Below are positions 23,141-23,913 of a DNA stretch of 32,753 nt, piece by piece. The stretch's first letter is position 1, and each line of letters begins with the position of its first letter. The stretch lies in NCBI GenBank assembly GCA_027024445.1, contig JALVSJ010000359.1, positions 1-32,753 of the forward strand, read 5' to 3'. Position numbers and translations under genes: made by a program. The notes beneath the pieces were generated by a model. It had not been told where the DNA came from and searched no databases. It worked only from the letters and a program-made list of their open reading frames with translations. The DNA is from Desulfobacterales bacterium. Its GTDB lineage: Bacteria; Desulfobacterota; DSM-4660; Desulfatiglandales; Desulfatiglandaceae.

Positions 23141-23242
23141 CGGGGTATTGAAATTTCCTCTATAAAGATTATTATAAATTATATGTGATAATAGTTCTTT
23201 AACAATTTCCAGGGCATGTCAGAGTAGGACGAATGGCCACTG

Positions 23243-23347
23243 CCCGGCACTCAACTCTTAGGGGGGAGCTGCAAGTGATGCAAGGCCTTTCTTGAAGTAG
23301 GAGCGAGGCGGTAAGCCATGGGTTCCCTTTAAGAGTTGAGTGCCGGG
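23243..23347. repeat. Palindromic insert 1 in rnpB (P3 position)
   Basis: Perfect 18-bp inverted repeat CCCGGCACTCAACTCTTA (23243-23260) / TAAGAGTTGAGTGCCGGG (23330-23347). The GGCACT...GTGCC core is 99 nt (23246-23344). Confidence 0.9.
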
Positions 23348-23435
23348 GGGAGGAAAGTCCGGGCTCCACAGGACAAGGTGCTGGGTAACGCCCAGTCCCG
23401 GTAACGGGAAGGAAAGTGCCACAGAAAACAGACCG

Positions 23436-23540
23436 CCAGGCACTCAACTTTGAGTAGGTACTTTTGCAGTACCAGGAGAACAGCAATATTGGGTAATTGC
23501 TGCCATCAAATATGAGCCCTGCTCAGAGTTGAGTGCCTGG
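23436..23540. repeat. Palindromic insert 2 in rnpB (P12 position)
   Basis: 19-bp inverted repeat with one G-U: CCAGGCACTCAACTTTGAG (23436-23454) / CTCAGAGTTGAGTGCCTGG (23522-23540). The core is 99 nt (23439-23537). Interior hairpins GGTAC/GTACC and CAGCAAT/ATTGCTG. Confidence 0.9.
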
Positions 23541-23714
23541 TAAGGGTGAAACGGTGAGGTAAGAGCTCACCAGTCCCGTCGGTGACGGCGGGAGCTAGGC
23601 AAACCCCACCTGGAGCAAGACCAAATAGGGGAGCGCTAGAGGGTGGTCCGCCCGAGCTCCCGGGTAGGTCGCTTGAGCCCATCGGTAACGGTGGGCCTAG
23701 ATGAATGGCCATTG

Positions 23715-23818
23715 CCCGGCACTCAACTTCGAGGAGATATCTACGGACTGCCGGATTCTTCCCACTATTTGATGGTGGTCCGAGCATCCCAGATACCTTT
23801 TCAGAGTTGAGTGCCGGG
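23715..23818. repeat. Palindromic insert 3 in rnpB (P19 / J2-4 position)
   Basis: 28-bp imperfect inverted repeat CCCGGCACTCAACTTCGAGGAGATATCT (23715-23742) / AGATACCTTTTCAGAGTTGAGTGCCGGG (23791-23818). The core is 98 nt (23718-23815). Confidence 0.9.
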
Positions 23819-23913
23819 AACAGAACCCGGCTTATGGACTGCTCTGGCATGCCTATTTTCCTTTTTATATGCACATGGAAGCTACCGCAGATGTTTCACG
23901 AAGCTCACACCGG

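Follow-up and report, generated by a model that had tools for sequence, protein, structure and literature searches.

The three inserts carried by the RNase P RNA gene (rnpB) of a Desulfobacterales genome (G000) probably belong to a family of small, non-autonomous, mobile palindromes that occupy the tips of stem-loops and are tolerated in structured RNAs. A single end motif links inserts in RNase P RNA, rRNA, and riboswitches, and the replacement and inversion of the interiors are visible between close relatives, which makes the mobility testable.

The Inserts of the RNase P RNA Gene

The window, i.e., the whole stretch of 32,753 nt that was analyzed, contains the single rnpB of the genome, recognized by the Rfam model RF00010 with 289.7 bits. 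The gene is about 641 nt long including 296 nt of inserts; without them 345 nt are left, close to the 350 nt estimated by the first-pass annotation, and all the core blocks are intact, as this annotation had also proposed. The features, in positions of the window, are the following:

23213..23853, + strand: rnpB, class A RNase P RNA, P1 to P1' (RF00010, 289.7 bits; P1 ends read from the sequence)
23246..23344, no strand: palindromic element at the P3 tip, 99 nt (exact ends; covariance model R1, 67.2 bits)
23439..23537, no strand: palindromic element at the P12 tip, 99 nt (exact ends; R1, 68.5 bits)
23718..23815, no strand: palindromic element at the P19 (J2/4) tip, 98 nt (exact ends; R1, 64.5 bits)
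23246..23256, + strand: left 11-bp end of the P3 element, GGCACTCAACT (end-motif search)
23334..23344, - strand: right 11-bp end of the P3 element (end-motif search)
23439..23449, + strand: left 11-bp end of the P12 element (end-motif search)
23527..23537, - strand: right 11-bp end of the P12 element (end-motif search)
23718..23728, + strand: left 11-bp end of the P19 element (end-motif search)
23805..23815, - strand: right 11-bp end of the P19 element (end-motif search)

All three inserts share exact 11-bp ends, GGCACTCAACT on the left and AGTTGAGTGCC on the right, and the six matches are the only ones in the window even when one mismatch is allowed (mean of 0.64 in shuffles). The first-pass annotation had described three same-ended segments of 99, 99, and 98 nt with self-complementary ends, and both points are exact; in fact, the inverted repeats reach 23243-23347, 23436-23540, and 23715-23818 through flanking CCC/GGG or CA/TG, and 11-bp inverted repeats of such a kind occur 0.2 times per window in block shuffles. 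The positions proposed for the inserts (P3, P12, and P19/J2-4) are borne out by the RF00010 alignment and by comparison with insert-free relatives. The interiors, claimed to be dissimilar from each other, indeed show no detectable similarity, whichever orientation is compared (local scores of 10-20, with the 99th percentile of the null at 20); the P19 interior has relatives in the P12 interiors of the congeners G001 and G002 (score of 28, above the null maximum of 26). The RF00010 match begins at 23304, inside the P3 insert, so that automatic annotation would misplace the ends of this gene; a warning thus concerns insert-bearing genes in general, whose ends are misplaced by covariance-model annotation.

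Other Copies in the Same Genome

A pattern search for further genomic copies of the ends, suggested by the first-pass annotation, found them in G000 and in other genomes. In G000, a fourth exact paired-end copy of 99 nt lies in the hairpin of 23S rRNA helix 98 (H98; C394, 303-401), two copies with compensated ends TGCACTAAACT lie in cobalamin riboswitches (C64 and C395, located by R1 and by end searches), and at least five are carried by a dispersed long-hairpin repeat (C63, C78, C368, C415, and C476), among which the C415 copy has lost one end and the C476 copy is placed at a contig end. All the element copies located in this genome are at stem-loop tips. Four single ends were also detected, two belonging to truncated copies in the hairpin repeat and two occurring in coding-like sequence, the latter probably by chance.

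The long-hairpin repeat, which carries the element at its tip, has arms of about 100 nt or more and a conserved core GTGACTTATC...GATAAGTCAC; its loci are L099:520-860, L205, L266, L270, and L267 in G000 and L100-L104 in G024, a genome in which most or all of the nine element copies appear inside this repeat. No Rfam match was found for this host. Moreover, between GCCACTG and GGGAAGG the cobalamin riboswitches of the genus carry another insert, AGCTGTCAGC...GCTGAAAGCTGA, which looks palindromic and is unrelated to the element (L251:1168-1604; L249 in G001, C26; L256 in G000, C404).

Anatomy of the Element and of Its Sites

The covariance model R1, whose E-values are rough, was built from 36 diverse inserts, in which the outer 11 pairs are near-invariant and are followed by one mismatch and then by eight covarying pairs. 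These inner pairs show 5-17 double changes each, and all the measures are above 500/500 shuffles and all the slid controls. The alignment (A1) was chosen by the element ends, which by itself accounts for part of the invariance seen in the outer pairs, while the covariation of the inner eight is unaffected; compensated changes are also found in the end variants TGCACTAAACT, GGCACCTAACT, and GCACCAAACT. The element is non-coding and about 94-105 nt in size with a freely varying interior, and the constant length noted in the first-pass annotation holds only approximately across the element family (copies longer than 80 nt average 99 nt, with an sd of 6.6 nt).

The stem of the host runs directly into the element ends, with at least three host pairs abutting at 47/60 sites versus 6.5% in shuffles, the sites not being independent as the same RNA positions recur in related genomes. 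No flanking direct repeat was present at any copy (0/69), and the absence of a target duplication speaks against classical DDE MITEs and in favor of a recombinase or a single-strand mechanism. The predicted RNA folds of the elements are long stems. In the covarying arm, G-U and A-C mismatches are 18:2 in rRNA hosts, 40:29 in rnpB, and 15:11 in riboswitches; this excess of G-U points to pairing and selection at the RNA level, clearly in rRNA hosts only and weakly in rnpB and riboswitches.

Filled, Empty, and Stub Sites in Relatives

Among 61 related genomes, 54 had an rnpB match, and in most of these genes P3, P12, and P19 are short and insert-free. The first-pass annotation had proposed to compare sister species and had named two observations that would speak against a mobile origin, namely the lack of insert-free orthologues and of other genomic copies of the ends; both failed, since insert-free orthologues are the majority and other copies exist. 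The congeners G001 and G002 carry inserts at P12 and P19, and G002 also at P3 (read from the alignment); the others are scattered, at P3 and P19 in G009, at P3 and P12 in G028, at P3 in G023, and at P12 in G007, G011, G031, G036, and G047, with shorter or divergent inserts in G004 and G039. Short stubs with little beyond the two ends are located in G001 (P3 and 23S H98), G007 and G047 (P3), G021 and G035 (P12), and in a riboswitch of G009.

The 23S H98 of most relatives is a plain hairpin of normal length, while G000 has the insert and G001 the stub; in comparison to empty hairpins (e.g., CCCTTCCTGTGGAAACACAGGAGCTGAAG), the filled H98 keeps the lower stem and misses the original tip. The distant G041 contains a related H98 insert whose ends are changed in a compensating fashion to GGCACCTAACT/AGTTAGGTGCC. 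In G010 the element is at the tip of 16S h44; a sequence near helix 25 of the 23S rRNA of the same genome, GCACTCAACTTGTTGAGT (L089:100-180, minus strand), looks like an element stub. The element hosts in G012 and at L127, L128, and L139-L141 have no assigned name, and a single coding-looking pattern match in G007 (C359) is probably due to chance.

Replacement and Inversion of the Interiors

The rnpB cores of G000 and G002 are 98.1% identical and the interiors at all three sites only 53-60% (shuffled mean 48%, maximum 57%); by sequence comparison, these interiors show little or no relationship. G001 and G002 have cores that are 92.3% identical and P12 interiors that are 97% identical in the opposite orientation, and other inverted pairs are the P3 interior of G002 with its own P19 (84%), the P12 interiors of G007 and G028 (76%), and the hairpin-repeat copies C78 and C476, which have the same interior in opposite orientations. 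Copies sharing an interior at different sites of the same genome were found in the riboswitches of G001, at P3 and P12 in G028, at P12 and P19 in L121, and in G012, and two copies are located within one riboswitch in L123.

The first-pass annotation had judged constant ends with variable interiors to differ from ordinary helix drift, and the replaced and inverted interiors bear this out. P3, P12, and P19 are length-variable helices of RNase P RNA, and the length of P12 differs among the related genomes; however, a drift in length producing similar ends by chance has a negligible probability, considering the identical 11-bp ends in three helices as well as in 23S rRNA, 16S rRNA, and riboswitches, the unrelated interiors between nearly identical cores, and the inverted interiors. 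The other genomic copies had already refuted it.

The same inversions bear on insertion at the RNA level, according to which excised hairpins would be ligated into other RNAs at their tips and then copied back to DNA. In favor of this route, the hosts are mostly abundant structured RNAs and those of rRNA type show the G-U bias; it is nevertheless very unlikely, given the dispersed intergenic copies and the presence of both orientations relative to the host RNA (P12 of G001/G002, P3/P19 of G002, P12 of G007/G028, and the C78/C476 hairpins), since RNA re-insertion would keep the sense. Intergenic copies and both orientations thus favor movement at the DNA level.

The ends could be linked to no transposase, recombinase, or autonomous copy, and the end regions examined contained no longer element. 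A candidate autonomous element in UBA3567 (C214, ends 2.2 kb apart) was rejected as it consists of two separate 103-nt copies. One genome of the host family, G013, contains about 20 near-identical genes for tyrosine recombinase-like proteins of 274 aa on many contigs.

Distribution Beyond the Host Family

A scan of 84,980 species for the exact-end pattern gave 35 stretches, with about one estimated by chance, in Desulfobacterota, several Firmicutes, one Acidobacteriota metagenome-assembled genome (MAG), and the gammaproteobacterium Pseudomaricurvus; the carriers are nearly all MAGs and the cross-phylum copies are taken as binned. The hosts assigned by Rfam beyond the family are rnpB (L121, twice; L130, L145, and L146), 16S rRNA (L116 and L122), 23S rRNA (L125 and L142), and cobalamin riboswitches (L123 and L135), and the 16S sites of the element are h44 and h6. 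The proposal of a palindromic element family settled at hairpin tips is supported, while its restriction to one ribozyme is not, because 16S and 23S rRNA, cobalamin riboswitches, and long-hairpin repeats are occupied too.

In UBA3567 (G070; L147-L166), 37 exact ends occur, and most of its many copies, each of about 103 nt, are nested in larger inverted repeats whose arms resemble GGACTTAATCAA/TTGATTAAGTCC. In a Desulfotomaculum MAG (L117:7070-7153), a copy follows a tRNA-like 3' end at a distance of a few bases and may belong to a terminator hairpin. Carriage by viruses was rejected, as no exact-ended copy was found in IMG/VR.

Proposed Mechanism and Implications

In the proposed explanation, a putative trans-acting enzyme would recognize the terminal hairpin and, acting at the DNA level, move or exchange the element into hairpin tips, probably in a single-stranded or cruciform form, a route suggested by the lack of duplication and by the use of either orientation. 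The copies would persist in essential RNA genes because peripheral hairpin tips tolerate them, and stubs would arise by internal deletion between the inverted ends. At the RNA level, the long element stems would likely be cut by RNase III, as in rRNA intervening sequences (IVSs): comparable rRNA inserts are excised by this enzyme leaving a working fragmented rRNA (PMC4990558, PMC2672173), and by analogy the RNase P RNA of G000 may work as pieces after insert removal, a fragmented yet working ribozyme being predicted. More tentatively, the family might represent a new class of mobile elements that targets the folded hairpin tip and not a sequence, keeps its terminal hairpin while swapping or inverting the interior, crosses phyla, and uses essential structured RNAs as safe harbors, with the RNase P RNA perhaps in four pieces after RNase III cleavage.

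Inversion and swapping could also be explained by recombination between the ends, without a dedicated enzyme. The inserts would then be old rRNA-type IVSs, inherited and transferred with their host genes and swapped and flipped by end-to-end recombination, and this account, although rather unlikely, agrees with the known IVSs in hairpins H25/H45 and in 16S rRNA (PMC4990558, PMC2672173) and with the related H98 inserts of G041 and G000 with compensated ends. On the other hand, it requires recombination over 11-14 bp and leaves unexplained both the spread of one end sequence to unrelated RNA classes and the near-identical copies dispersed in UBA3567 and G024; mobile palindromes are the preferred reading.

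Comparison with Known Systems

The first-pass annotation had compared the inserts with Rickettsia palindromic elements, REP/RAYT units, and MITEs, an analogy that is partial, as target duplications are absent (0/69) and no autonomous partner was identified. As MITEs, including Correia/nemis elements, whose transcripts are cut by RNase III, the element is small, non-coding, and multi-copy with terminal inverted repeats; it differs in the lack of target duplication and in being placed at the hairpin tips of structured RNAs. Rickettsia palindromic elements are likewise palindromes of about 100-150 nt inserted in genes and are best known from protein-coding genes, whereas no classified copy here interrupts an identified protein gene. 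REP/RAYT palindromes are GTAG-footed; the element has the ends GGCACTCAACT and shows no GTAG foot. The STRR in P12 of cyanobacterial rnpB are also repetitive DNA in a peripheral hairpin of this gene; STRR are tandem heptamers, while each element is one palindrome whose ends are conserved, with no tandem repetition.

The element resembles integron attC sites, imperfect hairpins of variable length that have conserved ends and contain an unpaired spacer; its main end type fits the R boxes RYYYAAC/GTTRRRY, and an integron integrase (TIGR02249) exceeds the cut-off in 25/46 genomes of the host family, including G000, G001, G002, G009, and G010. An origin as stray attC sites moved by this integrase is, however, highly improbable and was rejected: the cut-off is exceeded in 0/11 carriers outside the family and is not reached in G023, G024, and G036, the attC-like site beside intI of G001 has different ends, the variants ACTAAAC and ACCAAAC do not fit the consensus, and cassette genes are absent.

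A further close comparison is with the rRNA IVSs of Salmonella, Coxiella, Leptospira, and Clostridium paradoxum, which are inserts in rRNA hairpins with stem-forming complementary ends, sometimes of about 100 nt and with a scattered presence. Their origin has long been unclear, transposition remnants being a hypothesis only (Burgin 1990, as cited in PMC4990558), and no shared end motif is given in the IVS papers PMC4990558 and PMC2672173. In the literature, the end motif gave only primer-like chance matches, the element itself being unreported, and no paper joining inserts of RNase P RNA, rRNA, and riboswitches was found; subscription papers were under-covered in both searches and an earlier mention is possible. 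The copies at 23S H98 and 16S h44 and h6, rRNA hairpin inserts with complementary ends, would be called IVSs. Unlike IVSs, the element has no S23p gene and is not confined to rRNA genes, being the same in rnpB and cobalamin riboswitches; one end sequence spans RNase P RNA, 16S and 23S rRNA, and riboswitches across phyla, and encloses interiors that can be replaced and inverted.
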